From a virus, in the IMG/VR virus record IMGVR_UViG_3300021964_000553, positions 1 through 23,455 of that record: 23,455 nt of DNA. One strand, written 5' to 3'. A program made the position numbers and the translations under genes. The notes beneath the pieces are model-generated. The model saw only the letters and a program-made list of their open reading frames with translations. It searched no databases and was not told the DNA's origin. This document shows, one piece after another, positions 2,332 to 23,455 of the stretch. Each line of letters begins with the position of its first letter. Positions within the stretch are counted from its first letter, which is position 1.

Positions 2332-3021
2332 ATGGACGCAATTAGTATCGGACTTGGAGTAGGTCAAGCTGCACTAAGTTTTTTTGGTGATCAACAAGAC
2401 ATTGGTGCTATTTCAGCAGGAGCCTACCAAACAAAACTAGCTCAACGTCAAGCTGAAATTGTAAATGCTGCTCAAAACCGTGCTTATGCACGCCTTTTGC
2501 AGAACGCAACTCGTCAGTTTGGTGAAAATTTTGCTGAAGCTAATTCAACTTCTTCAGTAAATCAAGCTAAATTTCAAGAACAATTACTTTCGTTTGCATT
2601 TGCCAAAGAAAGTATGTTACGCAACGCACAAAGAGTAGAAGGTGCAGCCAACGCTACAGAGTCTTACGGCAAGACTAAAGACAGAATGAAAGCCATTAAA
2701 GCTTTAGGTGATGCAGGACGGCAACAAGCCAAGTATGCTGAATCAGTTGCTAGTGCTTATGGTGAAACTGAACGTACTAACCAAAGGTTGTTTAATAACC
2801 AGCTACGGCAGGCTAATCAAGGTATCATTGAACAAGTAGGTAATAGACCTATGCCACAGTTTGTACCTGGTGACTATCAAGCACCACAACCTTCAGGTAA
2901 TGCGTTATTGAAGATCGGTAATGCACTTCTGGGTGGCATTGAAACTGCACAACGGTTTGACCCGTTATTTGACTTTAGTACACCAAAACCACTACCAACA
3001 CAACCACTTCCTACGGGATAA
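2332..3021 (+). CDS. Internal virion / ejection protein (T7 gp14-like)
   Basis: This 229-residue protein opens with a short hydrophobic, glycine-rich stretch (MDAISIGLGVGQAALSFFGD). A long Ala/Gln/Asn-rich, probably helical region follows, with few prolines until about residue 180. T7 gp14 (196 residues) has the same make-up and is ejected first to form a pore in the host outer membrane. I chose the ATG at 2332, which lies 2 nt after the previous stop, over an in-frame ATG at 2308 that would add eight residues and overlap the upstream gene. The Pro/Gln tail (residues 185-229) is less ordered. It is the first of three consecutive ejection-protein genes. Confidence 0.8.
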   Translation: MDAISIGLGVGQAALSFFGDQQDIGAISAGAYQTKLAQRQAEIVNAAQNRAYARLLQNATRQFGENFAEANSTSSVNQAKFQEQLLSFAFAKESMLRNAQRVEGAANATESYGKTKDRMKAIKALGDAGRQQAKYAESVASAYGETERTNQRLFNNQLRQANQGIIEQVGNRPMPQFVPGDYQAPQPSGNALLKIGNALLGGIETAQRFDPLFDFSTPKPLPTQPLPTG

Positions 3022-3024
3022 TAA

Positions 3025-12700: not shown

Positions 12701-14876
12701 TGATGTTGCAACTGATGGTACAAAGCTAGATGGTATTGAAACTGGTGCAACTGCAGATCAGACTGCTTCTGAAATTTTAACTGCAATCAAAACAGTTGAT
12801 GGCTCTGGGTCTGGATTAGATGCTGATTTACTTGATGGTCAGCAAGGTTCTTATTACTTAGATTATAATAATTTTAGTAACACACCAACCATCCCAACTA
12901 CTACAGATAACCTCACTGAAGGTACAACCAATCTTTACAGTCAATGGGATGACGTAACTGGTGGGATTAATTATGCGAGTGGCAACGTCGGGATTGGTTT
13001 AACACCAACTGCTAAGTTCCATGTTGCTGGAACGATTCAATCATCAGTCGGTTCTCATACCGCTCAGATGTATTCCGATGGCGGTGCTTCGTTTTTTACG
13101 TCTGTTGGTGCGTATCCAAGCGTTTTTTATACCAATGGCAGTGAAAGACTCCGCATCGATTCATCAGGACGTGTGGGTATCGGGAACTCAAGCCCGACCC
13201 AGGAGCTATGCGTTCGTTCGACCGCTGGAACAGAATCAGACATCCTTATTGAAGGGGACAACGGCGCAAGTGGTGGTCTAACTGTTTTTCATAATGCCTC
13301 CGATTGCGGCTTGTGGAACAGTTCAAACACAAGCATGAAGTTTGCGACAAACGGAACTGAACGCGCCCGCCTCGACAGCTCTGGCAGGCTGTTGGTTAAC
13401 ACGTCTAGTAGCTCTGTTTCAACGGCACTCGTCGTACAAGGAAACAGCACTGGCTCTGCAAGTGGGCAAATATATGTGCAGCGGGACAATGACACCCCGA
13501 CTTCTGGAAACAAACTGGCAGATTTTAACTTTGCAGATTCTTCCGGTAACCGGGGCGCTGCAATCAGTGCTTTGTGTGATGGCACTTGGACCGCTGGAAG
13601 CTTCCATCCCGGCGCATTAACGTTCAATACGACGGCGGATGGTGCGTCTTCTCCGACTACGAGAATGACCATCAAAAATGATGGCAAGGTTGGGATTGGC
13701 ACTGCGATTCCTAGTAGTTTACTTGATTGCGAAGGATCAAGCACTGGAGACGGCGTAGGACTTCATCTTAATAACACAAGTGGATCAAATACGATTCTTG
13801 TTTCAACAGGCAGTGCTTACAGTTTTAGCGGAGTAGGGGCAAGTACAGCGTGGCTAACAAGCGCAGGAACAAAGGTTGCTATTGGTCCGTACACGGCTGG
13901 CGACATTCAATTTATTAACGGAGGAGAAAAAGCCCGCATCGACAGCTCGGGCAGGCTGTTGGTTGGCGCATCTAGTACGGTTAGCGTTGCTGGATCCAGT
14001 GCTTTTATCCAGCAGCACGGAAATAAAACAACTTGCAACTTAGCTCTCGCTGGTTACGCAAATAACTTAGGCGGACCCATCCTTGCTTTTGGCGCATCTC
14101 GTTCAACTACAGTTGGCACCGCTGGAACTATTGTTAGCTCCGGTGACATTCTTGGTGATATTCGTTTTGCTGGAGATGACGGCACAGATTTAAACACATC
14201 GGCTGCAACCATTCGAGGAGAAGTAGACGGCACACCTGGCGCTAACGACATGCCGGGCAGGTTGGTGTTCAGCACTACGGCGGATGGTGCGTCTTCTCCG
14301 ACGGAAAGATTGCGCATCTCATCCGCTGGTGCCATCGGTCTTAGCGGTGCAAACTACGGAACCTCTGGACAAGTCCTAACTTCAAACGGCTCTGCGAGTG
14401 CTCCTACTTGGCAAACACCAAGTGGTGGGGGTGGTGGCGGTGGTTTATTTGATAGCTACGCAATCTTCCAACACACAACATCTAGCGGCACAGGCGGTGG
14501 AGCGACTTCATCAAGCACGTGGAATACACGCCCAATTAACACCACAGCTGTTAGTCAAACGTGGGCATCTATCTCTTCAAACCAAATTACGTTAAGTGCC
14601 GGAACGTATTCAATTGAGTGGCAAGAAACTATTTATCGTTCTGATGCTACTCAAAGCAGATTCCGAAATGTGACTGACAGCACAACAGCTGCCTTGGGCT
14701 TGGCTTACCGCAGTGATGGCGTTGGTGGAGGATTTGGTAAAACAACCATCGCAAGCTCAAAAACATTTGAACTTCAGCATTACACCCAAAGCAACGACTC
14801 TAACGGTCTTGGCAACGATACAAGCTCTGGGGAAGACAACGTATTTGCAACAATTAAAATCACTAAACACGCTTAA
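9720..14876 (+). CDS. Mosaic tail fibre with T7 gp17-type N-terminus
   Basis: At 1718 residues this is far longer than T7 gp17 (553). Residues 1-110 match the T7-type fibre anchor (NNYTGNGSKVTFDITFEYL; AGSAIRAQDLNEDFKQTLF), which attaches to the tail. Two short repeats (WV-DD-IATT) follow near 118-180. Residues about 290-560 look like a right-handed beta-helix of the pectin-lyase type (IYVDSVNGLDTNDG, ATILVSPGVYQE), possibly with surface-polysaccharide activity. GTVDGRDV-type repeats occur near 780 and 990, around a domain at about 840-970 (NNTGSTITKGQAVYVSG). Residues 1140-1540 hold five SSGRVGIG-like units; a glycine run at about 1568-1574 leads to a C-terminal beta-rich head. G+C and codon use change near 12960, suggesting an acquired distal part. 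Role: host recognition. Confidence 0.9.
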   Translation: MAITENNYTGNGSKVTFDITFEYLKESDIKVSIDGTDQATTAYSFTSITTITFNTAPTNGAAVRIYRDTNIDSLRNEFFAGSAIRAQDLNEDFKQTLFVVQELDNNTWDNETNTIHSDEPWVSSDDQIATTAALDARFQDEANETITSSETWVADDDHIATTQAIENRIDDVITNDIGGSDGISITDDGDGTITVGISANSVDFDRIKNDDIITYTEQNAGSASPADSNVFTALAAARRFDTLVQTSTPSGSDWEVGKTWFQNDADKTVSIWNGSSWEGVVSGGTFTKLDKVIYVDSVNGLDTNDGHRISTPKKTIGAALDDINSDSIYGDGATILVSPGVYQETAPLDIQKKDVSIIGASIRNVIVHPTSATETNSLFRVNSGTYLQNMTFTGVKASGTRGDTGSLWEDATYGLPPTQGWNVSFYPDAMIYKSPYIQNCTNFSDSEIDNDNLEFFAGTEDKGRAGDLDSAPTGGGLLVDGSTVHDDSPLRSMVADSYTHVGLDGPGIFVTNNGYTQITSSYAFFNHFHIACINGGQANLAASTTDFGRYSLIADGKSVDAVITASINGTPSQNDITFDIDNVTAGTNWHGSATRPQDNMLVVVDGVTYPVISATAITGGWRVTISRPDTSDRTVNLGLSAAIADDTAVSFYLRSMIASSGHTMEYVGSGTDYTALPENGGVPNNDNQQVELNNGKIWTAITDHRGTFKVGDTFEVNQQTGFVNIPAGALSVSKLLENLDVNGNEIVSSSNGNIVVNPNGTGTIQLSADTAVTGDISVTGTVDGRDVSSDGTKVDDLITLTGVAGNTTDLGTFTGETLTDNITIKSALQELETAIEGHIPVLVDVHNNTGSTITKGQAVYVSGTHTSGKPTVALADSNGTNTYPAIGLANEDISDGVEGFVVISGYLDLVDTSLYSAGDALYLSETAGDVTTSRPSAATSEVQKLGIVTRSHATNGSILVIGAGRTNDVPNQITTNSDFTVNADIIVTGTVDGRDVATDGTKLDGIETGATADQTASEILTAIKTVDGSGSGLDADLLDGQQGSYYLDYNNFSNTPTIPTTTDNLTEGTTNLYSQWDDVTGGINYASGNVGIGLTPTAKFHVAGTIQSSVGSHTAQMYSDGGASFFTSVGAYPSVFYTNGSERLRIDSSGRVGIGNSSPTQELCVRSTAGTESDILIEGDNGASGGLTVFHNASDCGLWNSSNTSMKFATNGTERARLDSSGRLLVNTSSSSVSTALVVQGNSTGSASGQIYVQRDNDTPTSGNKLADFNFADSSGNRGAAISALCDGTWTAGSFHPGALTFNTTADGASSPTTRMTIKNDGKVGIGTAIPSSLLDCEGSSTGDGVGLHLNNTSGSNTILVSTGSAYSFSGVGASTAWLTSAGTKVAIGPYTAGDIQFINGGEKARIDSSGRLLVGASSTVSVAGSSAFIQQHGNKTTCNLALAGYANNLGGPILAFGASRSTTVGTAGTIVSSGDILGDIRFAGDDGTDLNTSAATIRGEVDGTPGANDMPGRLVFSTTADGASSPTERLRISSAGAIGLSGANYGTSGQVLTSNGSASAPTWQTPSGGGGGGGLFDSYAIFQHTTSSGTGGGATSSSTWNTRPINTTAVSQTWASISSNQITLSAGTYSIEWQETIYRSDATQSRFRNVTDSTTAALGLAYRSDGVGGGFGKTTIASSKTFELQHYTQSNDSNGLGNDTSSGEDNVFATIKITKHA
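13365..13397 (+). repeat. 33-bp repeat in the fibre gene, copy 1 (copy 2 at 13932-13964)
   Basis: The two 33-bp copies differ at two positions (the 7th and 18th bases) and lie in the same reading frame, encoding ARLDSSGRLLV and ARIDSSGRLLV. A second pair of exact 26-bp repeats lies at 13632-13657 and 14277-14302, starting ACGGCGGATGG. These repeats occur in the G+C-rich distal part of the fibre and could promote recombination between fibre genes. Confidence 0.9.
13932..13964 (+). repeat. 33-bp repeat in the fibre gene, copy 2
   Basis: This is the partner of the repeat at 13365-13397, with 31 of 33 bases identical by eye. The spacing of 567 bp keeps frame (189 codons). Confidence 0.9.
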
Positions 14877-14901
14877 CTTTTTAAATTTATTCAAATAACT
14901 G

Positions 14902-15219
14902 ATGACTACTTTCACCTGGAACATTGCTAACCTTGAGCGCAACACTGCTGATGGTATTGTTTTTACTGCTCATTATACAGTAAATGCCTCTGACGATACG
15001 TATTCTAGTGGTGCGTATGGTTCGATTGGTCTTGAAGCACCTGCTGAAGGCGATACTGTTATCCCGTTTGCTGATCTTACGTCTGACGTAGTGGTTGGCT
15101 GGGTTAAAGAAAAACTTGGTGGCGCTGAAAAGGTTGCAGAAATCGAAGCTGCACTTCAAGCACAACTTGATGAGCAACGTACTCCCACTAAGGCAACAGG
15201 TTTGCCCTGGACTGTCTGA
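14902..15219 (+). CDS. Small conserved cyanophage-type protein downstream of the fibre
   Basis: This 105-residue acidic protein has a beta-rich N-terminal half (TFTWNIANLERNTADGIVFT) and a helical Glu/Ala/Gln-rich C-terminal half (residues about 70-95), ending in a TGLPWTV tail. There is no signal peptide or membrane span, so a cytoplasmic or virion location is likely. I remember short proteins with this opening directly after tail-fibre genes in cyanophages, annotated only as a domain of unknown function. The position suggests a fibre-associated protein or assembly helper, but nothing in the sequence proves it. The start lies 25 nt after the fibre stop. Confidence 0.75.
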   Translation: MTTFTWNIANLERNTADGIVFTAHYTVNASDDTYSSGAYGSIGLEAPAEGDTVIPFADLTSDVVVGWVKEKLGGAEKVAEIEAALQAQLDEQRTPTKATGLPWTV

Positions 15220-15245
15220 TTTAAACTATTTATTGGAAATTAACA

Positions 15246-15407
15246 ATGATCACCCTTATTCGTCCAATTCTTTTTTCTTTCCTTCAATCTGAAAAAGTTA
15301 AACTCCTTATTGTTGATTTGCTAGCTAAACTAGCTGAGTCTACTGATAATGATATTGACGACAAAGCAGTTGAATTTGTTCGTAACGGTCTTTTCCCGAA
15401 TAAGTAA
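15246..15407 (+). CDS. Small hypothetical protein, 53 residues
   Basis: An ATG at 15246 opens a 53-residue frame (starting MITLIRPILFSFLQSEKVKL) that ends in a TAATG overlap with the next gene. The N-terminal half is hydrophobic and amphipathic (PILFSFL, LLIVDLLAKL); the second half has an acidic cluster (TDNDIDDKA) and ends FPNK. There is no true transmembrane span. The close stop-start overlap on one side and the 26-nt gap on the other support a real gene in the operon. I do not recognise its function. Confidence 0.7.
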   Translation: MITLIRPILFSFLQSEKVKLLIVDLLAKLAESTDNDIDDKAVEFVRNGLFPNK

Positions 15408-15907
15408 TGGACTTAGGTGAGCCACCGGTATTCCCGTCTATAAGGCTCCCTGAGCCCCTTCAATTACCTGTTCCGGTACTGGAGGTGCCAAGGGCTGATT
15501 TGCCCTCTTACAAGCCCCTTGTGGTGCCTCCTAGCGACCTTAGACCACCACCGGGGATTGAACCAAAACAAAAGGACGAACCTCCTAAACAAACATTACC
15601 ACCTACTCCACCAATACCTATACCACAAATACCTCAACCTCCTGAGGTAACTACAATTGATATACCTGGTACTGATGTTGAAGTACCTGTACCTAGTGGA
15701 GAAATATTGGTTACAGCTGCTACAACAGCTTTTGTTTCAGTTGCTGCCACCCTAACCGCTACTTCACTGTTTAAACATTGTGTATCTTTATTTAAACCAG
15801 TATTTAAACAGGCATGGAACAAGATCACAAGAAAGACGGACTCATCAAATTCATTGTCCTTGTCTGGTCTGCCGGACTCCTCACCGCATCATACGCAGGA
15901 TGGATGA
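15407..15907 (+). CDS. Proline-rich single-span membrane protein
   Basis: This 166-residue protein has an extremely proline-rich N-terminal part (residues 1-98, with runs such as LPPTPPIPIPQIPQPPE), one clear transmembrane segment at about 100-122 (LVTAATTAFVSVAATLTATS within it), and a short basic tail. The layout, an extended rod anchored by one span, suits a protein reaching across the periplasm or a membrane-bound lysis/assembly factor. The first 120-150 nt are conspicuously G+C-rich compared with the rest of the gene. Its 3' end overlaps the next gene by 94 nt in another frame. It starts in a TAATG overlap. Function is not recognised; a lysis-module role is inferred from its neighbours. 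Confidence 0.8.
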   Translation: MDLGEPPVFPSIRLPEPLQLPVPVLEVPRADLPSYKPLVVPPSDLRPPPGIEPKQKDEPPKQTLPPTPPIPIPQIPQPPEVTTIDIPGTDVEVPVPSGEILVTAATTAFVSVAATLTATSLFKHCVSLFKPVFKQAWNKITRKTDSSNSLSLSGLPDSSPHHTQDG

Positions 15908-15990
15908 GTAAGATGGATCCTACTTATGTCGCTTCTATTTTAAGTGGCACTTTAGCAACATTTTCAATCACTCGTGAAAAGAACAAATGA
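15814..15990 (+). CDS. Holin-like small membrane protein, nested start
   Basis: This 58-residue protein starts inside the proline-rich gene (94-nt overlap in a different frame) and ends in an ATGA overlap with the next gene. A charged N-terminus (MEQDHKKDG) precedes a hydrophobic span at about 11-30 (IKFIVLVWSAGLLTASYAGW); a second weaker hydrophobic stretch lies at 38-53, and the tail is basic (TREKNK). This fits a small class II-type holin. T7 has its holin, 17.5 (67 residues), in the same place after the fibre. Holins make the inner-membrane lesion that starts lysis. No endolysin gene is visible nearby, so the function rests on size, topology and position. Confidence 0.7.
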   Translation: MEQDHKKDGLIKFIVLVWSAGLLTASYAGWMSKMDPTYVASILSGTLATFSITREKNK

Positions 15991-16337
15991 AGAAACTTCT
16001 TCTATGTTTGCTGCTTGCAGCACCTGTATCGGCTCAGACCGTTACACCTAATTTTACACAAGGTAGTATGCAATCTACCTCAACCACTACTATTGATATT
16101 GACCGTACTATTGCAACTGAAGTGTACGGAGGAGATTACAAATCATGGTCTGGAACCAACGTAACACCCAGTGGTTCAATCGAAGACGCATCTACAACTT
16201 TTTCAGTAACCACTGCTGGAGATCCATTTCAACTGGAAATTATCAACAGGGTAGCAGGGATTGTCGAAACAACCGACATCACCGAAACCATCCAACAGGT
16301 TACCTCTACTACCTCCTTGTCAGTCTTCTCACAATAA
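15987..16337 (+). CDS. Secreted protein with signal peptide, 116 residues
   Basis: A textbook signal peptide opens the protein (MKKLLLCLLLAAPVSA, cleavage expected after VSA). The mature part of about 100 residues is rich in Thr and Ser (NFTQGSMQSTSTTTIDIDRT, VTSTTSLSVFSQ) and looks beta-structured, with no cysteine. The start shares an ATGA with the holin-like gene. The last 193 nt are also read in another frame by the following gene. I have a memory of similar short secreted proteins in cyanophage genomes between fibre and terminase genes, without known function. An envelope-modifying, superinfection-exclusion or lysis-related role is possible but not shown. Confidence 0.78.
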   Translation: MKKLLLCLLLAAPVSAQTVTPNFTQGSMQSTSTTTIDIDRTIATEVYGGDYKSWSGTNVTPSGSIEDASTTFSVTTAGDPFQLEIINRVAGIVETTDITETIQQVTSTTSLSVFSQ

Positions 16338-16783
16338 GCCCAGCTTACGCAGAAGACCCAAAGGTACAAAACACTTCATCACCTGTAGCTGCTGCTACGG
16401 GTAATGTAACCAATCAAGCTGTGCAATTTCAAAACAACGGTGCACCTTCAAGACAATACTTTACAAATGGTAATTCTTGTAATGGTACAACAATGACATT
16501 CCAACCATTTTATATGGGTGGTGACGTACATACTGATACATATCAACGTACTAGTAATTTTGGGTTGCAGGTTGGTTTTTCTGTACCTTTAGATGGGGGT
16601 ATGGTTGAGACTTGTAAACAGATTGCACGTCGTCATGAGCAAAAAATGCGTCTAGATTACGAACTAGTTCGAGCATTAAAATGCACCGAAATTATGAAGG
16701 CTGGTTTTACATTCCGACCTGGTAGTCGTGTAGAAGTGTTGTGCCACGATATAGTCCCTATTGTTGCCCTTAAAAATGATTGA
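16145..16783 (+). CDS. Secreted cysteine-containing protein with uncertain start
   Basis: From about codon 53 this frame looks real: a hydrophobic core (YLYYLLVSLLTI) ending in SPAYA, then a mature domain of about 144 residues beginning EDPKVQNTSSPVAAATGNV. Four cysteines (SCNG, ETCK, LKCT, VLCH) could form two disulphides after export. The C-terminal part is helical (RRHEQKMRLDYELVRALKCT). The first 52 codons lie wholly inside the previous gene and have an Asn/Arg/His-rich composition typical of a shadow frame. Between the ATG at 16145 and the signal peptide there is no in-frame ATG, GTG or TTG. Translation therefore starts at 16145, uses a rare start codon, or depends on a -1 shift from the upstream frame. 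The last 8 nt overlap the next start. Confidence 0.72.
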   Translation: MVWNQRNTQWFNRRRIYNFFSNHCWRSISTGNYQQGSRDCRNNRHHRNHPTGYLYYLLVSLLTISPAYAEDPKVQNTSSPVAAATGNVTNQAVQFQNNGAPSRQYFTNGNSCNGTTMTFQPFYMGGDVHTDTYQRTSNFGLQVGFSVPLDGGMVETCKQIARRHEQKMRLDYELVRALKCTEIMKAGFTFRPGSRVEVLCHDIVPIVALKND

Positions 16784-17012
16784 AGCAGTAGTATCTGCTA
16801 CCGTAGCTGCATTAGCAGCGGGCGCAGCACTTACAAATAGACTACACAACAGAATAACAGAATTAGATCGACGTGTTGACGCATTTGAACTACGTGTTGC
16901 CACTCAATATGTTCCTCAAGAGCAATTTGGTGAAGCAATAAGTAAAATGGAAGCTCACATGATCCGTATTGAAAACAAGCTTGACCAAATGATTCTTAAG
17001 AGTAATCAGTAA
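16776..17012 (+). CDS. Membrane-anchored coiled-coil protein, 78 residues
   Basis: I chose the ATG at 16776 (MIEAVVSATVAALAAGAALT), which overlaps the previous stop by 8 nt; an in-frame ATG at 16761 would only add five residues. Residues 1-21 form a small-residue membrane span. The rest is helical with heptad spacing (NRITELDRRVDAFELRVATQ, then MIRIENKLDQMIL), so a coiled coil is likely. An N-terminal anchor followed by a coiled coil is the plan of inner-membrane spanins such as Rz/T7 18.5, and the gene lies in the region before the terminases, but no partner lipoprotein is visible. Spanin is therefore only one option; a phage structural or membrane adaptor is another. Confidence 0.77.
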   Translation: MIEAVVSATVAALAAGAALTNRLHNRITELDRRVDAFELRVATQYVPQEQFGEAISKMEAHMIRIENKLDQMILKSNQ

Positions 17013-17191
17013 TGAAAAAGAAAAATAAACAAGTTGCTCAGGCAGGTCCGGGTTACAGACCACGTCCTGGTAGTGATTCTGGTGGTAATCAGGAACGTAT
17101 GGGTACTAAAAAAGTATGGGATTCTCATATGAAAATGTGGGTACCAGTTAGACGTGCTAAGCGTGCTAACCTTAAAATAAACAAAGCATGA
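17012..17191 (+). CDS. Very basic small protein, 59 residues
   Basis: The frame opens at 17012, sharing the final base of the preceding stop codon, and closes in an ATGA overlap with the small terminase gene. The protein is strongly basic (MKKKNKQVAQ at the start, RRAKRANLKINKA at the end) with a Gly/Pro/Ser-rich middle (AGPGYRPRPGSDSGGN) and a short aromatic patch (KVWDSHMKMWVPV). Nucleic-acid binding is a reasonable guess from its charge. Its coupling to TerS suggests a packaging accessory role. I do not recognise a family. Confidence 0.7.
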   Translation: MKKKNKQVAQAGPGYRPRPGSDSGGNQERMGTKKVWDSHMKMWVPVRRAKRANLKINKA

Positions 17192-17430
17192 AAAAGAAAG
17201 CAACCGAAAACCAGTTTAACGAGTTGCATAATCTAGTTACAAGGGAGTTCCTTGCCCGTATTAAATCGGGTGAGGCAACTACCCAAGACTTAAAAGCAGC
17301 TTGTGACTGGCTAAAAACTAATGACATCAGTGGTGTTGCATATGAAGGCAATCCACTTTCTAAACTTGCTAATGTTATGCCGCAAGTTGACCCTGAACTT
17401 GTACAAAGTAGGCTTTATGGCAAAAAGTAA
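17188..17430 (+). CDS. Small terminase subunit (T7 gp18-like, TerS)
   Basis: This 80-residue helical protein compares with 89 residues for T7 gp18. It includes FNELHNLVTREFLARIKSGE and ATTQDLKAACDWLKTNDI, a helix-turn-helix-like arrangement that I associate with cyanophage TerS proteins, and ends PELVQSRLYGKK. TerS recognises the phage DNA and stimulates the large subunit during packaging. It starts in an ATGA overlap and its end overlaps the next gene by 14 nt. Unlike T7, six short genes lie between it and the fibre gene and three between it and the large subunit. The call rests on size, position and remembered family resemblance. Confidence 0.75.
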   Translation: MKKKATENQFNELHNLVTREFLARIKSGEATTQDLKAACDWLKTNDISGVAYEGNPLSKLANVMPQVDPELVQSRLYGKK

Positions 17431-17674
17431 AACAGCTCAGTACTATTTGCAAAACCCGGATGCTGCTAAACGTCGCCGTAAACAGCAGCGTGATTATAAT
17501 AAAACTTCTAAAGGTCTCAAAATCCGAGTTGAAGCTAACAAATTAAACCGTAAACTTGGTACTTACGGTAACGGTGATAATAAAGATGCGTCACATACAG
17601 GTTCAAATAAAGGTAAGTTAGAAAAACCTTCAACAAACCGTAAACGACCTCGTATGAAAATTAAATACGCATAA
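17417..17674 (+). CDS. Small basic protein with GTYGNGD/DASH motif
   Basis: I chose the ATG at 17417 (MAKSKTAQYYLQNPDAAKRR); a longer frame from 17321 would run through most of the TerS gene. The 85-residue product is highly basic, with the central motif NRKLGTYGNGDNKDASH and a tail NRKRPRMKIKYA. I remember proteins of this pattern as a common small family in cyanophages and other large aquatic viruses, of unknown function. The order Asp-x-x-His, spacer, Asn-Arg resembles a stripped-down HNH-type core, and the next gene is a true HNH nuclease, but this similarity is only suggestive. DNA binding is likely from charge. It overlaps TerS by 14 nt and the HNH gene in TAATG. Confidence 0.75.
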   Translation: MAKSKTAQYYLQNPDAAKRRRKQQRDYNKTSKGLKIRVEANKLNRKLGTYGNGDNKDASHTGSNKGKLEKPSTNRKRPRMKIKYA

Positions 17675-18003
17675 TGACGCCACTATTTCCTACTCCTGAT
17701 CACTATTTACAAAACCTAATAACCATGACATCACCTGAAGCTAAACGTCTTTGGAGACGTGCAATAAAGGAACATTTTGGATGCACATGTGTTTATTGTG
17801 GAGAAACTTATGAATTACACGAACTTACTTTGGATCACGTTTATCCTCGCACCTTTGGCGGGGAAGATATTACAAGCAATTTGGTACCAGCCTGTGTTAA
17901 GTGTAATCAGGATAAAGGAAGTAGAAATTGGCTTACATGGATGAGGGACAAGTTTGGAGTCAATCGACTCCGCGAAAATCTTATTATGGAGTACATTAAT
18001 TAA
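17674..18003 (+). CDS. HNH endonuclease
   Basis: This 109-residue protein carries a complete HNH core: Cys39-x-x-Cys42 (CVYC), LTLDHVYPR with Asp54-His55, GG at 62-63, Asn69, then CVKC (74-77) with Asn78 and Lys81-Gly82. The four cysteines would bind a structural zinc, His55 is the expected general base, and Asn69/Asn78 fit the remaining HNH positions. Free-standing HNH nucleases next to terminase genes in many phages support DNA packaging; homing is the other common role. There is no sign of a split host gene here, which favours a packaging role. An alternative start at 17725 (MTSPEAKR) would remove 17 residues without touching the core. Confidence 0.9.
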   Translation: MTPLFPTPDHYLQNLITMTSPEAKRLWRRAIKEHFGCTCVYCGETYELHELTLDHVYPRTFGGEDITSNLVPACVKCNQDKGSRNWLTWMRDKFGVNRLRENLIMEYIN

Positions 18004-18005
18004 TC

Positions 18006-18491
18006 ATGGCTTATTCTAAAAAGACTCAAAAACAAAAAGACGAAGAACAACTTAAGCGGGATCGTGCACGTAGTGATGCACAATATCGGGCATCTGGTGG
18101 ACGCACTGGTGTAGGACGCCGTGGAAGGGGGGCAAAAGGAGCTACGCAAGGAAGAACGTCTGCAACTGCTGCTGACATTGCACGTAGCGATGCTCAATAT
18201 CGGGCATCTGGTGGACGCACTGGTGTAGGACGCCGTACTAGCACGTCTTCTACAAGTTCTACACGCACTTCTACTCCAACCCGTAGACCTACTACACCTA
18301 CTGCAAAGACTAACCCCACTTCTAAGCCCACTTCTAAGCCCAAAGGTACTCCAATGGAACAGTGGGCACGTGCTAATCCTAAACTGGCTGCTAAAGTAAA
18401 GCCAGGGCAATCCGGTTATGCCGCTGCTCAAAAAGTGTTGCGAGAAATGAAAGCTAAAAAAGTAAAGATTAACAAAGGTAAAACTGCTTGA
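18006..18491 (+). CDS. Basic low-complexity protein with internal duplication
   Basis: This 161-residue protein is rich in Arg, Lys, Ser, Thr and Pro. The unit ARSDAQYRASGGRTGVGRR occurs twice, at residues 21-39 and 59-77, separated by a glycine/alanine linker. A disordered Ser/Thr/Arg/Pro stretch (about 78-115) follows, then a more ordered tail (GTPMEQWARANPKLAAKVKP, then GYAAAQKVLREMKAKKVKIN). The charge suggests nucleic-acid binding. The gene lies between the HNH and terminase genes, so a packaging accessory is possible. I recognise the MEQWARANPKLA-type ending from other phage proteins but know no function. Confidence 0.75.
   Translation: MAYSKKTQKQKDEEQLKRDRARSDAQYRASGGRTGVGRRGRGAKGATQGRTSATAADIARSDAQYRASGGRTGVGRRTSTSSTSSTRTSTPTRRPTTPTAKTNPTSKPTSKPKGTPMEQWARANPKLAAKVKPGQSGYAAAQKVLREMKAKKVKINKGKTA
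18066..18122 (+). repeat. 57-bp in-frame direct repeat, copy 1
   Basis: This segment matches 18180-18236 at 55 of 57 bases, with two synonymous changes, and both copies encode ARSDAQYRASGGRTGVGRR. The 114-bp period (38 codons) preserves frame. The near identity, with only silent differences, points to a fairly recent duplication or ongoing conversion between the copies. Confidence 0.95.
18180..18236 (+). repeat. 57-bp in-frame direct repeat, copy 2
   Basis: This is the partner of the copy at 18066-18122. Both differences fall at third codon positions (GAT preceded by AGC rather than AGT, and GCT rather than GCA). Confidence 0.95.
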
Positions 18492-18499
18492 AGTAATTT

Positions 18500-19393
18500 A
18501 TGACTGTCGCAGAATGGATTGAAGCCGCCAATAAACTGTTAAAAGCTAACCCTAATTTAACTTATAAACAATCTGAACAACAGCTAGCTGCCGATGGTCA
18601 TAAAAGACCTCCTGGTATTACTCAAAAGGGTGACTCTAAAGGCTTGCGTTGGGGTCCAAAATCAAAACGCACTCCTAAACAAAATGTTCGTCGAAGAAAT
18701 CAAGAACAAACATCTACTAAATTAGCTGATGAAGCAAACAAACTTTTAGCAAAACAAAGGGCAGCATTACAAGGAATTGCTGAGTTTGCTGGAATGCCTG
18801 CTCCACACAGAGAACATCTATATAGCCAAGATGTTTCTGGTTTGCTTCAGGCAGGCGCACCTAGTGATTTTATAGAAAATGTACCTTCTAATCTTGCTGC
18901 TACTAAAACAGCTTTAGAACAAAGAATTAGAACTAGATATAACAATCGTTATGCTGTTGGAATAGGTGTTAACGGTTTACGTGTTATTCCTGTAGAATTT
19001 TTTGATGAGTTAGTTAATCCAGACGATTTACCTGGTATTGACATCGATGAAACAGTTCCTATTGATGATCAAATAAATGTTTTAAAAAGCATTTATACAC
19101 CTGAACCACCTAGGCAATTGGGAGGATTTCAAACACACACACCTAGTATAACAACTACAGCTGGTACTGTTAAATATAAACCTAAACAAGTACTATCTTT
19201 TCCTAAACAAAACCAACTTCCCCAAACATTACCACCAGAACCTAAACAAGATTTAACTCAACAAGTTTACGAAGCCTCTAAAGTTGTAACTGATAATGCT
19301 GCTACCGTTGTTGGAGTTGGTTTAGCAGTTGGATCAGGGCTTTTACAAGGCATTGGAGGTACAATTAAATTTGTGACTGGTGGTGGCTTTTAA
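18500..19393 (+). CDS. Hypothetical protein upstream of the large terminase
   Basis: This 297-residue protein has three visible parts. Residues 1-95 are basic and helical (TVAEWIEAANKLLKANPNLT; KSKRTPKQNVRRRNQEQ). Residues about 100-200 are a compact domain (PHREHLYSQDVSGLLQAGAP, NVPSNLAATKTALEQRI, RVIPVEFFDELVNPDDLPGI). Residues 200-297 are Pro/Gln/Thr-rich and end in a small-residue hydrophobic stretch at about 266-292 that could insert in a membrane. Glu105-His106 followed by Asn131 and Lys136 recalls a worn HNH layout, but cysteines are absent and spacing is poor, so I do not call it a nuclease. It ends 3 nt before the terminase ATG. Confidence 0.8.
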   Translation: MTVAEWIEAANKLLKANPNLTYKQSEQQLAADGHKRPPGITQKGDSKGLRWGPKSKRTPKQNVRRRNQEQTSTKLADEANKLLAKQRAALQGIAEFAGMPAPHREHLYSQDVSGLLQAGAPSDFIENVPSNLAATKTALEQRIRTRYNNRYAVGIGVNGLRVIPVEFFDELVNPDDLPGIDIDETVPIDDQINVLKSIYTPEPPRQLGGFQTHTPSITTTAGTVKYKPKQVLSFPKQNQLPQTLPPEPKQDLTQQVYEASKVVTDNAATVVGVGLAVGSGLLQGIGGTIKFVTGGGF

Positions 19394-19396
19394 TTT

Positions 19397-21124
19397 ATGA
19401 ACACCCTAGAACTACTTAAAGATGATTTCAAGCTGTTCCTGCAGGCTCTGTGGGCGCAGCTTGATCTGCCTGAACCTACACGTGCTCAATATGCTATCGC
19501 AGACTATCTTCAATATGGACCTAAACGTCTTCAAATACAAGCTTTCCGTGGTGTTGGAAAATCCTGGATCACTGGAGCATTCGTTTTGTGGACGCTTTTC
19601 AATAACGCTGAAAAAAAGATAATGATCATATCGGCATCAAAAGAACGTGCCGACAACATGTCTATTTTTCTTCAAAAACTTATTATTGAAACACCGTGGC
19701 TAACACATCTTCGTCCTAAGTCTGATGATGCACGTTGGTCACGTATTTCTTTTGACGTTCAGTGTAGTCCTCACCAGGCACCTTCAGTTAAGTCAGTTGG
19801 AATCACGGGTCAGCTTACGGGTAGCCGGGCTGACCTTATGATCCTTGACGATATTGAAGTTCCTGGTAATAGTATGACAGAATTTATGAGGGAAAAGTTG
19901 CTTCAACTCTGTACAGAAGCTGAATCAATTCTTACTCCTAAAGATGACAGTCGTATTATGTACCTTGGTACACCACAAACAGTTTTTACTGTGTACCGTA
20001 AACTGGCTGAACGAAATTATCGTCCCTTTATTTGGCCAGCTCGTTACCCACGGTCAATGTCTAACTATGAAGGTTTGATAGCACCTCAACTTCAAGAAGA
20101 CATTGATATGGGTGCTGATAAATGGGACGTAACTGACCCTGACAGATTTGATAACGATGACTTACTTGAACGTGAAGCAGCTATGGGACGAAGCAACTTT
20201 ATGCTTCAGTTCATGCTTGACACCAGCCTTAGTGACGCTGAAAAATTCCCACTTAAAATGGCTGACCTTATCGTTACTGCTGTTAACCCTTCAACTGCTC
20301 CTGATTCCGTCATCTGGTGCTCAGACCCAAGAAACGTCATTAAAGACGCTCCCACTGTTGGCTTACCTGGAGATTATTTCTACAGTCCAATGCAGTTACA
20401 AGGAGAGTGGCTTCCCTACCAAGAAACAATCTGCAGTGTTGACCCGTCGGGTCGTGGCTCGGATGAAACGGCAGCAGCTTTTATTAGCCAACGAAACGGT
20501 TTCTTGTACTTGCACGAAATGCGTGCTTATAGAGACGGATACTCAGACAACACACTCTTGGATATTTTAAGAGGATGTAAAAAATATAACGTTACTAAAT
20601 TAGTTATTGAAACTAACTTTGGTGATGGTATTGTTGCAGAATTATTTAAAAAACATTTAGCTCAAACAAAACAAGGTATAGACGTTGAAGAAGTCAGAGC
20701 AACTGTACGGAAAGAACAAAGGATCATTGACGCTCTTGAACCCATTCTTAATCAGCATAGGCTTGTTGTGGATCGCGGTGTTATTGATTGGGATTACACC
20801 TCCAACAGAGATGAAGCTCCTGAAAAACGACTCCTCTACATGCTATTCTATCAAATGAGTCGTATGTGCCGTGAAAAAGGTGCTGTACGACATGACGACA
20901 GAATTGATGCCCTTGCTCAAGGTGTCCAATACTTTACAGATGCTATGGGTATTTCTGCCCAAGAAGCAGTAAACCAACGTAAACGTGAAGAATGGAATGA
21001 TCTGCTATTGTCAACAATTGATGACCCTCAAAGTAGTGCTAATCACCTTGTCTTAGGGTTGAATTTAGACCAAAGACGAGCTGCTAGAGGTAAATCTAAA
21101 AACTCAGTCCCCAACTGGGTTTAA
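19397..21124 (+). CDS. Large terminase subunit (T7 gp19-like, TerL)
   Basis: At 575 residues this is near the T7 gp19 length (586). The ATPase domain has a Walker A-like loop at 50-57 (FRGVGKSW, Lys55) and a Walker B segment (LMILDD, 147-152). The C-terminal RNase H-like nuclease has its acidic residues in SVDPSGRG (Asp349), LVIETNFGDG (Glu405) and RHDDRIDALAQG (Asp500/501 and Asp504). It is the packaging motor that translocates DNA into the prohead and cuts concatemers. The missing glycine in the usual GxxGxGK loop (RGVGKS here) agrees with the relaxed Walker A of T7-type terminases. Three hairpins follow the stop. Confidence 0.96.
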   Translation: MNTLELLKDDFKLFLQALWAQLDLPEPTRAQYAIADYLQYGPKRLQIQAFRGVGKSWITGAFVLWTLFNNAEKKIMIISASKERADNMSIFLQKLIIETPWLTHLRPKSDDARWSRISFDVQCSPHQAPSVKSVGITGQLTGSRADLMILDDIEVPGNSMTEFMREKLLQLCTEAESILTPKDDSRIMYLGTPQTVFTVYRKLAERNYRPFIWPARYPRSMSNYEGLIAPQLQEDIDMGADKWDVTDPDRFDNDDLLEREAAMGRSNFMLQFMLDTSLSDAEKFPLKMADLIVTAVNPSTAPDSVIWCSDPRNVIKDAPTVGLPGDYFYSPMQLQGEWLPYQETICSVDPSGRGSDETAAAFISQRNGFLYLHEMRAYRDGYSDNTLLDILRGCKKYNVTKLVIETNFGDGIVAELFKKHLAQTKQGIDVEEVRATVRKEQRIIDALEPILNQHRLVVDRGVIDWDYTSNRDEAPEKRLLYMLFYQMSRMCREKGAVRHDDRIDALAQGVQYFTDAMGISAQEAVNQRKREEWNDLLLSTIDDPQSSANHLVLGLNLDQRRAARGKSKNSVPNWV

Positions 21125-21335: not shown

Positions 21336-21959
21336 ATGAATAACGTTAAGTTAATACACTATACACCTAATGGTGATGATCTCATTGCTTATATGGCACG
21401 TGTATCAAATCCAAACAATCAAAACAACACTGAGACCAGTGCTAAGTTAATTAAATACCTTATCAAACATCGACATTGGTCACCGTTTGAAATGGTAAAT
21501 ATGTGTGTAGAAATTAACACTACACGGTCAGTCGCTGCTCAAATTCTGCGACACCGCTCGTTTAGCTTCCAAGAGTTTAGTCAACGTTATGCTCAAGTAA
21601 CAGAATTACCACAAACTCCTGACTTACGTAAACAAGATCTTAAAAATCGTCAAAATAGTACAGATGATCTAAACCCAACTGATAAACAATATTATCAAGT
21701 GTTAATGCAACAACACTTTGAACAAAGTATGCGTATCTATAATGATATGCTTCAGGCAGGCGTCGCTAAAGAATGCGCTAGAGAGGTTTTACCGCTTTGT
21801 ACTCCTACTCGTATGTATATGAACGGGTCTTTACGTAGTTGGATCCATTATACTGACTTAAGGTGCGATAACGGGACTCAACTTGAACATAAACTGATCG
21901 CTCAACAGTGTAAACAGCTTATTGCTGAGGCTTTCCCGATGGTTTATAGCTGTCTATAA
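21336..21959 (+). CDS. thyX: Flavin-dependent thymidylate synthase ThyX
   Basis: This 207-residue protein contains the full ThyX signature RHRxxSxQxxSxR at residues 72-84 (RHRSFSFQEFSQR). The later dUMP-binding and structural residues are also visible: KECAREVLPLCTPTRMYMNG and SWIHYTDLRC with TQLEH. It makes dTMP from dUMP using methylene-tetrahydrofolate, FAD and NADPH, working as a homotetramer in the cytoplasm, and would feed phage DNA synthesis. Length is typical (about 200-250). It is separated from the terminase by hairpins and has its own host-type promoter, so it is probably expressed earlier than the late genes. Nucleotide-metabolism genes of this kind are common in cyanophages. Confidence 0.96.
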   Translation: MNNVKLIHYTPNGDDLIAYMARVSNPNNQNNTETSAKLIKYLIKHRHWSPFEMVNMCVEINTTRSVAAQILRHRSFSFQEFSQRYAQVTELPQTPDLRKQDLKNRQNSTDDLNPTDKQYYQVLMQQHFEQSMRIYNDMLQAGVAKECAREVLPLCTPTRMYMNGSLRSWIHYTDLRCDNGTQLEHKLIAQQCKQLIAEAFPMVYSCL

Positions 21960-21962
21960 ATT

Positions 21963-21990
21963 TTGGTAAAAATTTGTCTACCCATATAAC
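21963..21990 (+). promoter_or_regulatory. Possible promoter reading into the structured region
   Basis: TTGGTA (21963-21968), a 16-nt spacer and TATAAC (21985-21990) form a fair sigma70-type promoter. It overlaps an AT-rich inverted repeat (AAATTTT at 21958-21964 and AAAATTT at 21969-21975) that begins at the thyX stop. It would start RNA near 21997, just before the hairpin series. Short matches of this quality occur by chance, so confidence is low. Confidence 0.35.
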
Positions 21991-22010
21991 GCTGTAGCGT
22001 GGACGCACAA

Positions 22011-22024
22011 ACCCCCGTGGGGGT
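22011..22024 (+). other. C-run/G-run hairpin
   Basis: ACCCCC (22011-22016) faces GGGGGT (22019-22024). The two-base gap is too small for a loop, so four or five pairs would actually form. It is the first G+C-rich hairpin after the possible promoter. No T-run follows. Confidence 0.5.
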
Positions 22025-22036
22025 GCCTGCCCGTAG

Positions 22037-22117
22037 AACCCAGTAAAAAGCGGTTAAACCCAGTGATACCAAGCGGTTTAGCCCAGTATTTTTCTACACT
22101 TTGCTGGGTTACACCGC
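22037..22117 (+). repeat. Short repeats of AGCGGTTwArCCCAGT with an inverted copy
   Basis: AGCGGTTAAACCCAGT (22049-22064) and AGCGGTTTAGCCCAGT (22072-22087) are direct repeats with a 23-nt period. A partial copy, AACCCAGT, lies at 22037-22044. The complementary form GCTGGGTTACACCGC (22103-22117) can fold back on the second copy to give a 14-position stem with one mismatch and one G-T pair, enclosing a 17-nt loop. A further AGCCCAGC lies at 22186-22193. The pattern fits protein-binding iterons or a structured RNA. Confidence 0.7.
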
Positions 22118-22135
22118 GCAAACCAACTACCGCGC

Positions 22136-22309
22136 GCAGGTCACACGCCTGCATTACACATGCGCGATCTGTCTGCGACAGTTAAGCCCAGCTTATGTCA
22201 CCGATAAGAACGGCTAATGACAGCTAAGATCCGTTGGTATGACTGGGATCTGCCCATGAGTTGTGACAGTTTGTCCGACTGTCCACCGTCAAACGGGTAG
22301 TTGGTGGGC
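22136..22309 (+). other. Series of small hairpins
   Basis: Successive inverted repeats are GCAGG/CCTGC (22136-22152), CTGTC/GACAG (22169-22181), TAAGC/GCTTA (22183-22195), AGATCC/GGATCT (22227-22251), GACAGT/ACTGTC (22265-22283) and CCACC/GGTGG (22283-22307, sharing its first base with the previous stem). Each is short, and several could form by chance, but six in 174 nt with little space between them is notable. No protein frame runs through the segment convincingly. Confidence 0.5.
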
Positions 22310-22321
22310 TAATGTCTAACC

Positions 22322-22403
22322 GAGATGACTGATTTGAAGGTCTTGATCTCGACTCTCCCTGTTAAGGGGGAGGAGAGTCTCGATCTTCAACCATCAGTCA
22401 CTC
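22322..22403 (+). other. Large irregular hairpin, possible RNase III site
   Basis: Pairs run GAG/CTC (22322-22324 with 22401-22403), TGACTGAT/ATCAGTCA (22326-22333 with 22393-22400), TTGAAG/CTTCAA (22334-22339 with 22385-22390), ATC/GAT (22346-22348 with 22382-22384) and GACTCTCC/GGAGAGTC (22351-22358 with 22372-22379), about 28 pairs in all. Between them lie a 2-nt bulge, a 6-nt bulge and a 2x2 internal loop; the end loop is 13 nt. Length and asymmetric interruptions resemble the T7 RNase III processing hairpins that lie between early genes. Processing is inferred; the pairing is seen directly. Confidence 0.75.
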
Positions 22404-22555
22404 CCACCGAACCTCGACAACTTCATAAGCAGCTCGCTAAGTGGTGGCGACCAAGCCCGTGGGTTCCTGGGCTGAGAGCTGGTAGATTACGTTTTGTTAC
22501 AGCTTACGCTGTCAGCGCCGAGTCACAGGCGCTTCACAAGTATGCTCATGACACC
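22404..22555 (+). other. Non-coding stretch with three short hairpins
   Basis: AGCCC/GGGCT (22454-22473), ACAGC/GCTGT with a 4-nt loop (22499-22512) and GCGCC/GGCGC with an 8-nt loop (22515-22532) occur in sequence. TCCTGGGCTG at 22465-22474 is repeated exactly at 22590-22599 inside the tRNA-like element. I see no gene in this part. Confidence 0.5.
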
Positions 22556-22603
22556 GGCCAGCATGCATCGGCGTGCACCCAGGTTCGAGTCCTGGGCTGG
22601 TCA
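22556..22603 (+). ncRNA. 48-nt tRNA-like element (acceptor stem plus T-arm)
   Basis: GGCCAGC (22556-22562) pairs with GCTGGTC (22596-22602) over all 7 positions, with one G-T wobble. The T-stem CCAGG/CCTGG (22579-22583 with 22591-22595) is perfect and closes the canonical 7-nt loop TTCGAGT. The T-stem runs directly into the acceptor strand without a gap, as in true tRNA, and A22603 sits at the discriminator position. Only 16 nt remain between the 5' acceptor strand and the T-arm, enough for one small hairpin (TGCA/TGCA) but not for D and anticodon arms. No CCA is encoded. It could be a tRNA mimic, a processing signal, or a tRNA-derived attachment sequence. Confidence 0.6.
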
Positions 22604-22604
22604 T

Positions 22605-22622
22605 TGCGTCATCAAGGACGCA
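22605..22622 (+). other. Hairpin after the tRNA-like element
   Basis: TGCGTC (22605-22610) pairs fully with GACGCA (22617-22622) around a 6-nt loop. It starts 1 nt after the tRNA-like element and its 3' arm contains AAGGA, a possible ribosome site 24 nt before the next ATG, which would be hidden or presented by the fold. Confidence 0.5.
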
Positions 22623-22646
22623 TTGTTCACTTTCATCCATCCAATT

Positions 22647-22895
22647 ATGTTCAATCTTTCTACCCTTTGTGTTCGCACCTCGGACGCAGTTGATTACCTG
22701 ACTGTTAATCCATTCACTGGTGTTGTTGATGTATGCTTCCGCAATGGTTATGCTTACACATACACTAATGTATCACGTCGTGCTATCATGAACCTCATGA
22801 TGAATGATAACATGTCGCTTGGTTTCTGGATCAATGAGAATTGTGTCAAGTCCAAGCGTGCAAAGGTTGCACACAAGTATGTGTACGCTGTCTGA
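22647..22895 (+). CDS. KTSC-type small protein
   Basis: The start at 22647 (MFNLSTLCVRTSDAVDYLTV) gives 82 residues; the upstream extension of the frame runs through structured non-coding DNA and is not believable. The pattern RTSDAVDYL, then VDVCFRNGYAYTYTNVS, then NMSLGFWINENCV follows the KTSC fold as I know it (S-x2-I-x-Y, a beta-hairpin with F-x-NG-x-Y-x-Y, then S-x-G-x-F/W-x-N). These small proteins occur in phages and bacteria, and some act on nucleic acids or RNA polymerase-related proteins, but no general function is established. It is the first gene after the structured region, where T7-like phages place early host-takeover genes. Confidence 0.82.
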   Translation: MFNLSTLCVRTSDAVDYLTVNPFTGVVDVCFRNGYAYTYTNVSRRAIMNLMMNDNMSLGFWINENCVKSKRAKVAHKYVYAV

Positions 22896-22905
22896 TGTTT
22901 ACACT

Positions 22906-22921
22906 GAGGCATTCGTGCCTC
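22906..22921 (+). terminator. UUCG-loop hairpin with GAGGCA/TGCCTC stem
   Basis: GAGGCA (22906-22911) and TGCCTC (22916-22921) close the loop TTCG, a form known for exceptional RNA stability. It lies 10 nt after the KTSC-type stop. The same stem recurs after the next gene (23267-23281). No T-run follows here, so RNA stabilisation or processing is as likely as termination. Confidence 0.6.
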
Positions 22922-22923
22922 TC

Positions 22924-22945
22924 TGTAAGCTTCACAATGCTTACG
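22924..22945 (+). other. Second intergenic hairpin
   Basis: GTAAGC (22925-22930) pairs with GCTTAC (22939-22944) around an 8-nt loop, with an outer T-G wobble. It follows the TTCG hairpin by 3 nt, so two hairpins fill most of the 76-nt gap between the flanking genes. Confidence 0.55.
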
Positions 22946-22971
22946 ATTGTCCACTTTATTTCCATTTAATC

Positions 22972-23268
22972 ATGACTATTTCTGCCACTCAATCTGCTGC
23001 TATTGCAGACATTCTTGATACCTATGACGCATCAGAGCGTGAAGACATTGCCAACTATGGTTGTGCCTCAGGTTCTGCACATGCTCACATTTACTATCAA
23101 CAAACTTGGGAGTATTTCCTCAAGTTTGAAGACGAGATTGAAGATTATTTCTATGATCTTTTCGATGACAATTATATCCACGATCTTACTGCTGATCAGA
23201 CCAGTATTCGTGGGATTGTCAACAAACTTGTCTGGTCTTTTGTTGAGTCTGTATGTTCTAACTATTGA
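22972..23268 (+). CDS. Small strongly acidic protein, early-region position
   Basis: The start at 22972 (MTISATQSAAIADILDTYDA) gives 98 residues. Longer in-frame starts from 22804 would cross the previous gene and the hairpins. I count 18 Asp/Glu against 4 Lys/Arg, with a dense acidic centre (FEDEIEDYFYDLFDDNYIHD). An N-terminal helix is followed by a conserved-looking patch (YGCASGSAHAHIYYQQTWEY). I have a weak memory of a family of unknown function with a similar GC-SG and YY pattern. The strong negative charge, small size and early position recall DNA-mimic inhibitors such as T7 Ocr, but no residue similarity to Ocr is claimed. No clear ribosome site is seen. Confidence 0.75.
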   Translation: MTISATQSAAIADILDTYDASEREDIANYGCASGSAHAHIYYQQTWEYFLKFEDEIEDYFYDLFDDNYIHDLTADQTSIRGIVNKLVWSFVESVCSNY

Positions 23269-23284
23269 GGCAATCTGCCTCTTT
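23267..23284 (+). terminator. Hairpin with the same GAGGCA/TGCCTC stem, at a stop codon
   Basis: GAGGCA (23267-23272) and TGCCTC (23276-23281) close a 3-nt loop, followed by TTT. The stem begins inside the TGA stop of the acidic protein gene. It repeats the stem at 22906-22921, which suggests the same processing or stabilising factor acts on both messages. Confidence 0.6.
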
Positions 23285-23330
23285 AGTTAACAACAATTAT
23301 TCACAATCATCTCAAGGACGCAGAATCAAA

Positions 23331-23447
23331 ATGCTTTGGTCTGAATCTACAATCATCCTGGCCATTGTCGGTATGGTAGGATTGTTCAGCACTGCCATCA
23401 TTTGGCAACGTGCAAACCGTATCACCTCTAACTACTACAAGAAATGA
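23331..23447 (+). CDS. Small single-span membrane peptide, 38 residues
   Basis: AAGGA (23314-23318) lies 12 nt before the ATG at 23331, supporting this start. The product begins MLWSESTIILAIVGMVGLFS, spans the membrane once at about residues 6-25, and ends in a basic cytoplasmic-type tail (WQRANRITSNYYKK). A longer frame from 23265 would begin inside the preceding hairpin and is less likely. Short membrane peptides are common among early genes of cyanophages and have no assigned role. Confidence 0.65.
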   Translation: MLWSESTIILAIVGMVGLFSTAIIWQRANRITSNYYKK

Positions 23448-23455
23448 AGTACAAC

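Follow-up and report, generated by a model that had tools for sequence, protein, structure and literature searches.

A tRNA-like element without an anticodon arm at the 3′ end of a structured cyanophage leader RNA, and its probable role in transcript punctuation

Bacteriophage T7 uses long hairpins that are cut by RNase III. In eukaryotes, RNase P and RNase Z both cut mascRNA, and the cyanophage P-SSP7 carries a fragment of a host tRNA. The mascRNA is an RNase P substrate, and RNase P measures the stack formed by the acceptor and the T-arm by a ruler (PMC4919913). Both RNase P and RNase Z are present throughout the cyanobacteria (PMC10989914). The tRNA-like structures of plant viruses end RNA genomes and are aminoacylated (PMC4810235). 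The locus analyzed here contains a tRNA-like element without an anticodon arm (mini-tRNA), and no description of it was found in the open-licence literature on cyanophages, phage mini-tRNAs, tRNA punctuation, and phage RNase P or RNase Z processing.

The mini-tRNA and its conservation

The window, which is the whole 23,455-base stretch that was analyzed, is the record of a T7-like cyanophage related to the Synechococcus phages S-RIP2 and KBS-P-1A (78% identity over 74% for its last 3.4 kb). The gene order runs from the tail genes to terminase, thyX (ending at 21959), the genome-end region and the first early genes. The mini-tRNA is located downstream of a putative terminal repeat and upstream of the first early gene. 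The terminal repeat in the S-SBP1 record is 180 bp long, starts with TATACGCTGTAGCCGG and ends in ..CGCGCG. The features of the locus are as follows.

21985 to 22165 (approximate), + strand: probable homologue of the terminal direct repeat that forms the left genome end of related phages, from similarity to the S-SBP1 repeat
22310 to 22315, + strand: -10-like TAATGT before the 5′ hairpin, a predicted early host promoter with a start near 22321-22323; relatives have TATACT, TATGAT or TATCAT at the same site
22322 to 22403, + strand: 5′ hairpin of the leader, with a fold z of -6.0 over 22320-22402; the outer stem covaries and the core is invariant in relatives
22404 to 22513, + strand: middle domain of the leader with the conserved motif GAACCTYGACAA (alignment A4); its pairing is less certain
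22514 to 22533, + strand: pseudoknot hairpin H1 (AGCGCC / GGCGCU, loop GAGUCACA), with compensatory stem differences between relatives
22522 to 22552, + strand: pseudoknot of the loop GUCA (22522-22525) with UGAC (22549-22552), complementary in 41 of 41 distinct sequences
22556 to 22603, + strand: mini-tRNA, from covariation in 22 homologues and covariance-model hits
22604 to 22622, + strand: U22604 and the hairpin UGCGUC-AUCAAG-GACGCA (22605-22622) directly after the predicted cut site, from folding and compensatory differences in KBS-P-1A
22647 to 22895, + strand: first early gene downstream, encoding a small protein that we take to be KTSC-like, from the open reading frame list and alignment with the KBS-P-1A and MedDCM-C4 homologues

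An open frame runs through the element into the downstream gene, and a coding function for this region was rejected because a stop codon in MedDCM-C4 breaks the frame. Small hairpins without a tRNA-like part (GAGGCA..TGCCUC and GUAAGC..GCUUAC) are found at 22900-22960 and 23268-23290, directly 3′ of the stop codons of the first two early genes.

The mini-tRNA consists of GGCCAGC (22556-22562), 16 nucleotides, the T-arm CCAGG-TTCGAGT-CCTGG (22579-22595), GCTGGTC (22596-22602) and A22603. An earlier sequence-only reading had described this acceptor/T-arm sequence and its pairing, and both were confirmed, with pair 2 of the seven acceptor pairs being G-U. It had also proposed that there is no room for a D arm, which proved incorrect, as the 16 nucleotides between acceptor and T-arm are filled by a conserved D-arm-like hairpin, GCAUGC-AUCG-GCGUGC, at the position of the D arm. 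The helix partition common to the family, taken from the homologues, is 6 (acceptor) + 5-6 (hairpin) + 6 (T-arm). In the window, this partition places the acceptor at 22556-22561/22597-22602, the D-arm-like hairpin at 22562-22575 and the T-arm at 22578-22596, with the loop UUCGAGU at 22584-22590 and A22603 as the discriminator. The mini-tRNA is a three-way junction, in other words a tRNA without the anticodon arm, and the GG of its D-arm-like hairpin could touch the T-loop as G18 and G19 do in tRNA. The 48-mer folds with -24.8 kcal/mol (z -3.3), and 1 of 200 shuffles was equally stable.

When the window was searched for a T-arm combined with an acceptor, the mini-tRNA was the only strong match on the sense strand, and the same search of shuffled windows gave 0 matches in five trials. 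Relaxed scans of 14800-19500, 21960-22540 and 22620-23455 revealed no further convincing element. KBS-P-1A, like the window, has a single mini-tRNA; an antisense match in the terminase gene of both is conserved coding sequence. Comparison with tRNA (RF00005) showed that the 7-bp acceptor and the 5-bp T-arm with a TTCRA loop are present, although the split is mostly 6+6 with a sum of 12, and that the anticodon arm is absent, with one 14-nucleotide hairpin between acceptor and T-arm. The mini-tRNA was not reported by ARAGORN or by the Rfam tRNA model (RF00005), no family in Rfam 15 matches it at the gathering score, and CCA is not encoded after it. In contig L190 (6436-6528, - strand), a tRNA-Met called by ARAGORN is really a mini-tRNA plus upstream sequence, so the family may be hidden by automatic annotation.

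Pattern scans and protein-anchored scans of viral contigs yielded 22 distinct homologues from T7-like cyanophages, which aligned almost gap-free (alignment A3). Compensatory changes were observed in 8 of the 17 pairs, across the acceptor stem, the T-arm and the middle hairpin. Paired cells amounted to 96.3% (83.5% shuffled), double-change cells to 57 (19 shuffled), and the covariation score to 0.415 (0.157 shuffled), with none of 500 shuffles scoring as high. Registers slid along the alignment were 23-41% paired, and RNAalifold independently recovered the same fold. Acceptor pair 2 is G-U, C-G or U-G among the homologues, pair 4 is U-A, C-G or A-U, and pair 5 is A-U or G-C; the first pair of the D-arm-like hairpin is C-G, U-A or A-U, and T-stem pairs 1, 3 and 4 have changed on both sides. 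The motifs UGCAYCGGCGU and GGUUCGAGUCC do not vary, whereas the stem positions that flank them change in a concerted manner. The mini-tRNA at 22556-22603 is thus a real, conserved structure. The earlier proposal of a tRNA mimic is upheld, as a mimic of the top half under selection, by the compensatory changes in the 22 homologues, and neither an absence of such changes nor a loss of the T-loop or of acceptor pairing in close phages was found.

The leader RNA and the wider family of elements

The mini-tRNA of the window is the 3′ domain of a structured early leader RNA of about 280 nucleotides (22322-22603), the start of which is predicted. That the element belongs to a larger structured RNA and to a family had been missed by the sequence-only reading. 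Between the window and KBS-P-1A, 22328-22603 is 97-100% identical compared to about 60% in the flanks, and this block of near-identity begins at the large hairpin and ends at the discriminator. The leader and its flank fold with -130 kcal/mol (z -5.3). A scan of the leader for consensus sigma-70 promoters and for terminators gave nothing above chance.

The plan of the leader is kept in related phages, in which a -10-like box is followed by a 5′ hairpin, a middle domain with GAACCUYGACAA, the pseudoknot hairpin and the mini-tRNA. Five different pairing combinations occur among the 41 sequences with a complementary pseudoknot, which ends only three bases upstream of 22556. The T-arm and UUG signature was found in 52 of 63 distinct leaders; the other 11 lack it as tested, although visual inspection reveals a tRNA-like T-arm in at least two of them (L099 and L114). 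A second subtype of the mini-tRNA, with the T-stem GCCCG/CGGGC, occupies the same leader position in other relatives. The S-CBP4-like leaders among the 11 (L212, which is S-CBP4, at 296-800, L105 at 2600-3100, L173, L130, L061, L067 and L108) seem to have a different structured domain after the pseudoknot. This domain (CATGCRTYYG..., with nested hairpins) seems to stand in place of the mini-tRNA, had no match in an Rfam search, and could be another kind of processing element or a ribozyme. The leader RNA is a candidate for a new class of non-coding RNA that is absent from Rfam.

Additional elements are found elsewhere in the genomes of relatives. Covariance model R1 also picks up diverged copies, up to a fourth, within the same genomes at spacings of a few hundred bases, as in contig L195 (9756, 9271, 8837 and 8472). 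A scan of 13 cyanopodovirus genomes with a grammar that requires the T-loop T[TG]CRA and a minimum stem length of 5 gave 30 sense matches and 1 antisense match (strand bias P = 1.5e-8), compared to 1-5 matches on both strands combined in each of ten shuffled sets of all 13 genomes. The same scan gave 0 elements in T7, SP6, pelagiphage HTVC011P and roseophage SIO1. By annotation, about 23 of the 30 sense matches are intergenic or on a stop codon, two are in doubtful small ORFs of P-SSP2, and five are in coding sequence, which is the chance level. The coding-sequence matches in S-CBP3 (thyX, 7767), P-SSP7 (41053), S-CBP4 (41703), S-TIP37 (32582) and P60 (30849) were not counted as elements. Several sense-strand tRNA-like elements per genome therefore lie between genes in the family, and the window shows one. 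By eye, the middle part is of two types, either a D-loop-like GG piece accompanied by a TTC T-loop, or a hairpin whose loop ends in AAG or UAG, accompanied by a TGC T-loop.

Of the 13 genomes, 11 have a tRNA-like element upstream of the major capsid gene, ten by the strict scan and P60 by the relaxed scan. In NATL1A-7 this element is an annotated full tRNA-Gly directly upstream of the gene, and perhaps it serves as punctuation and not as a translation aid. Contigs of the Prochlorococcus-phage type have a full tRNA-Asp(GUC) among their mini-tRNAs. Annotated or predicted tRNA-Gly(TCC) genes at 3479-3549 of L216 (NATL1A-7) and 6111-6181 of L147 have the 3′ flank TTTGGC, as the mini-tRNAs do, and contigs L191, L195, L196, L200, L201, L203, L147, L165 and L170 each have a tRNA-Asp(GUC), in many cases irregular, with TTG and a hairpin 3′ of it. 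A Glutamine-II riboswitch match was also observed in KBS-P-1A (L205, 42416-42470) and P-SSP7 (L211, 20522-20575), where it lies between psbA and the major capsid gene; in P-SSP7 the mini-tRNA at 20632 follows it directly.

The 3′ boundary, stop codons and the proposed cut

The acceptor and T-arm stack totals 12 for 31 of the 53 short elements, split as 7+5, 6+6 or 5+7, a statistic that comes from a scan with stack lengths of 11 to 15 and in which the cases are not independent, as many elements are homologous. Chance structures in shuffled DNA have stacks spread from 10 to 16. With the T-loop as the anchor in 44 cluster representatives, the discriminator falls at position 13 (A in 41%), and positions 14-16 are T in 82%, T in 77% and G in 73%. 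The T-loop is thus at a constant distance from a conserved 3′ boundary, as indicated by the register of the discriminator and TTG and by the stack of 12. A hairpin starts within four bases after the TTG in 84%, compared to 45% with shuffled flanks, and in 57% the hairpin adjoining the UUG is more stable than 95% of the shuffles. In KBS-P-1A, the counterpart of the hairpin at 22605-22622 has other, compensating bases (GGGUC/GACCC).

The element is probably a cis punctuation mark in phage transcripts at which host tRNA-processing enzymes, above all RNase Z, would cut after the discriminator. Enzymes that measure the stack are suspected because of the constant distance from the T-loop to the boundary, the many intergenic copies, and the ordinary tRNAs at equivalent places. 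The upstream gene's stop codon lies inside the element in six annotated cases (two in MedDCM-C4, one in S-SBP1, two in S-TIP37 and one in Syn5), and likewise in P60. The 3′ cut by RNase Z is favored because these stop codons would be lost by a 5′ cut and kept by a 3′ cut. Among the roles listed in the sequence-only reading, that of an RNase P processing or 3′-end signal fits best.

The proposed sequence of events would begin with the tRNA-like structure, in which the acceptor is stacked on the T-arm over 12 base pairs and a small hairpin replaces the D and anticodon arms. Host enzymes that measure this stack, chiefly RNase Z, would cut 3′ of the discriminator, which is A22603 in the window. 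The upstream product would receive a tRNA-like 3′ end, possibly with CCA added, and the downstream mRNA would begin with one or two U followed by a hairpin. Such a hairpin-capped 5′ end should protect from RNase E and RNase J, and the downstream mRNA may thus be shielded from 5′-end-dependent decay. In the window, the cut would separate the leader RNA of about 280 nucleotides (22322-22603) from the first early mRNA; other cuts of this kind would fall between early genes and upstream of the major capsid gene. A broader model, to which we give an even chance, is that T7-like cyanophages punctuate their polycistronic mRNAs with anticodon-less tRNAs cut by RNase Z and not, as T7 does, with RNase III sites, that the first of these frees the leader RNA, and that the full-length tRNA-Asp and tRNA-Gly also serve as punctuation.

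A variant that is compatible with RNase Z punctuation, although somewhat unlikely, is that both ends are cut, by RNase P at 22556 and by RNase Z at 22603, and that a free 48-nucleotide mini-tRNA results, as happens with mitochondrial tRNAs and mascRNA. The element has the stack that RNase P measures (PMC4919913), and elements such as that of the window, with no stop codon nearby upstream, present no conflict; an RNase P cut, at 22556 in the window, may occur in elements far from a stop codon. However, at least seven elements have stop codons in their 5′ part, and only three bases separate the upstream pseudoknot from 22556. It is unlikely that the element acts in cis uncut, with neither RNase Z nor RNase P cleavage, as a stabilizer of a 3′ end or 5′ leader, as an exonuclease block, or through an effect on translation of the next gene (capsid). 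Its steady location at the ends of genes and ahead of the highly expressed capsid gene agrees with such a role, and the 5′ pseudoknot and three-way junction would also suit an exonuclease block. Nevertheless, the register of the discriminator and UUG from the T-loop and the adjacent hairpin are more simply explained by cutting, and full-length tRNAs occupy the equivalent places in relatives.

Less probable still is a small RNA acting in trans, in which the leader or the excised mini-tRNA would be a decoy for EF-Tu, RNase P, the CCA enzyme or a synthetase, or would serve host takeover in another way. The leader has a strong structure and is almost the same in two phages that differ in the flanks, as such an RNA might be, but several different elements per genome at gene junctions, overlapping stop codons, fit a cis role better. 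The identity of the acceptor and the discriminator is not conserved across elements, and this argues against a synthetase target. Finally, a relic or attachment-site fragment of a host tRNA gene, suggested earlier by analogy with the tRNA fragment of P-SSP7, can be dismissed together with that parallel and with a chance match, because both sides of the stems have changed in a compensatory manner in 22 homologues with the shape kept, relatives carry several intergenic copies of differing sequence, the shuffles gave few matches, the core pattern is absent from the cyanobacterial genomes of the collection searched, and no integrase adjoins the element.

Relation to known tRNA-like systems

If RNase Z punctuation holds, abundant DNA viruses of the ocean would use tRNA punctuation in the style of mitochondria, with tRNAs reduced to the part that the enzymes read. 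It would explain how cyanophages shape their mRNA ends during infection, when the host RNase E is induced (PMC10989914). The usual view that small phages carry tRNA genes to supplement codons would be put in question, and the elements would form a natural gradation from full tRNA down to a minimal substrate, on which the requirements of RNase Z and RNase P could be studied.

Among described systems, the phage element resembles the armless mitochondrial tRNAs, in which the tRNA shape is also reduced to about 45-50 nucleotides; unlike these, it has no anticodon at all. With the tRNA-like domain of tmRNA it shares an acceptor and T-arm, a reduced D arm and a pseudoknot in the same RNA. However, tmRNA was rejected as an identity since the acceptor strands are adjacent, with no tag reading frame or mRNA-like part between the halves of the tRNA-like domain, and ARAGORN finds no tmRNA. 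The 3′ tRNA-like structures of plant viruses are likewise viral tRNA mimics with a pseudoknot nearby, but the phage elements are intergenic and have neither a conserved acceptor identity nor CCA. The RNase III sites of the T7 early mRNA resemble the elements as repeated intergenic structures in the early region and before late genes of a T7-like phage, although they are long hairpins cut by RNase III, and T7 and SP6 have no mini-tRNA. MALAT1 mascRNA and related tRNA-like 3′ ends also place a tRNA-like fold 3′ in a longer RNA, where it is expected to define the end; the phage element is likened to mascRNA by its fold, while the processing of mascRNA by both enzymes belongs to eukaryotes.

A further likeness is to mitochondrial tRNA punctuation, in which tRNA shapes between genes are read by tRNA-processing enzymes to separate mRNAs, as is proposed for the phage. 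The phage elements differ in belonging to a DNA phage. Most of them lack an anticodon arm and are unable to decode, they can contain stop codons, and their cleavage is a predicted step. In summary, the mini-tRNA, which is not a tRNA by two tested criteria and is not a tmRNA, is an element that probably works like tRNA punctuation, with its cleavage predicted from the conserved boundary.
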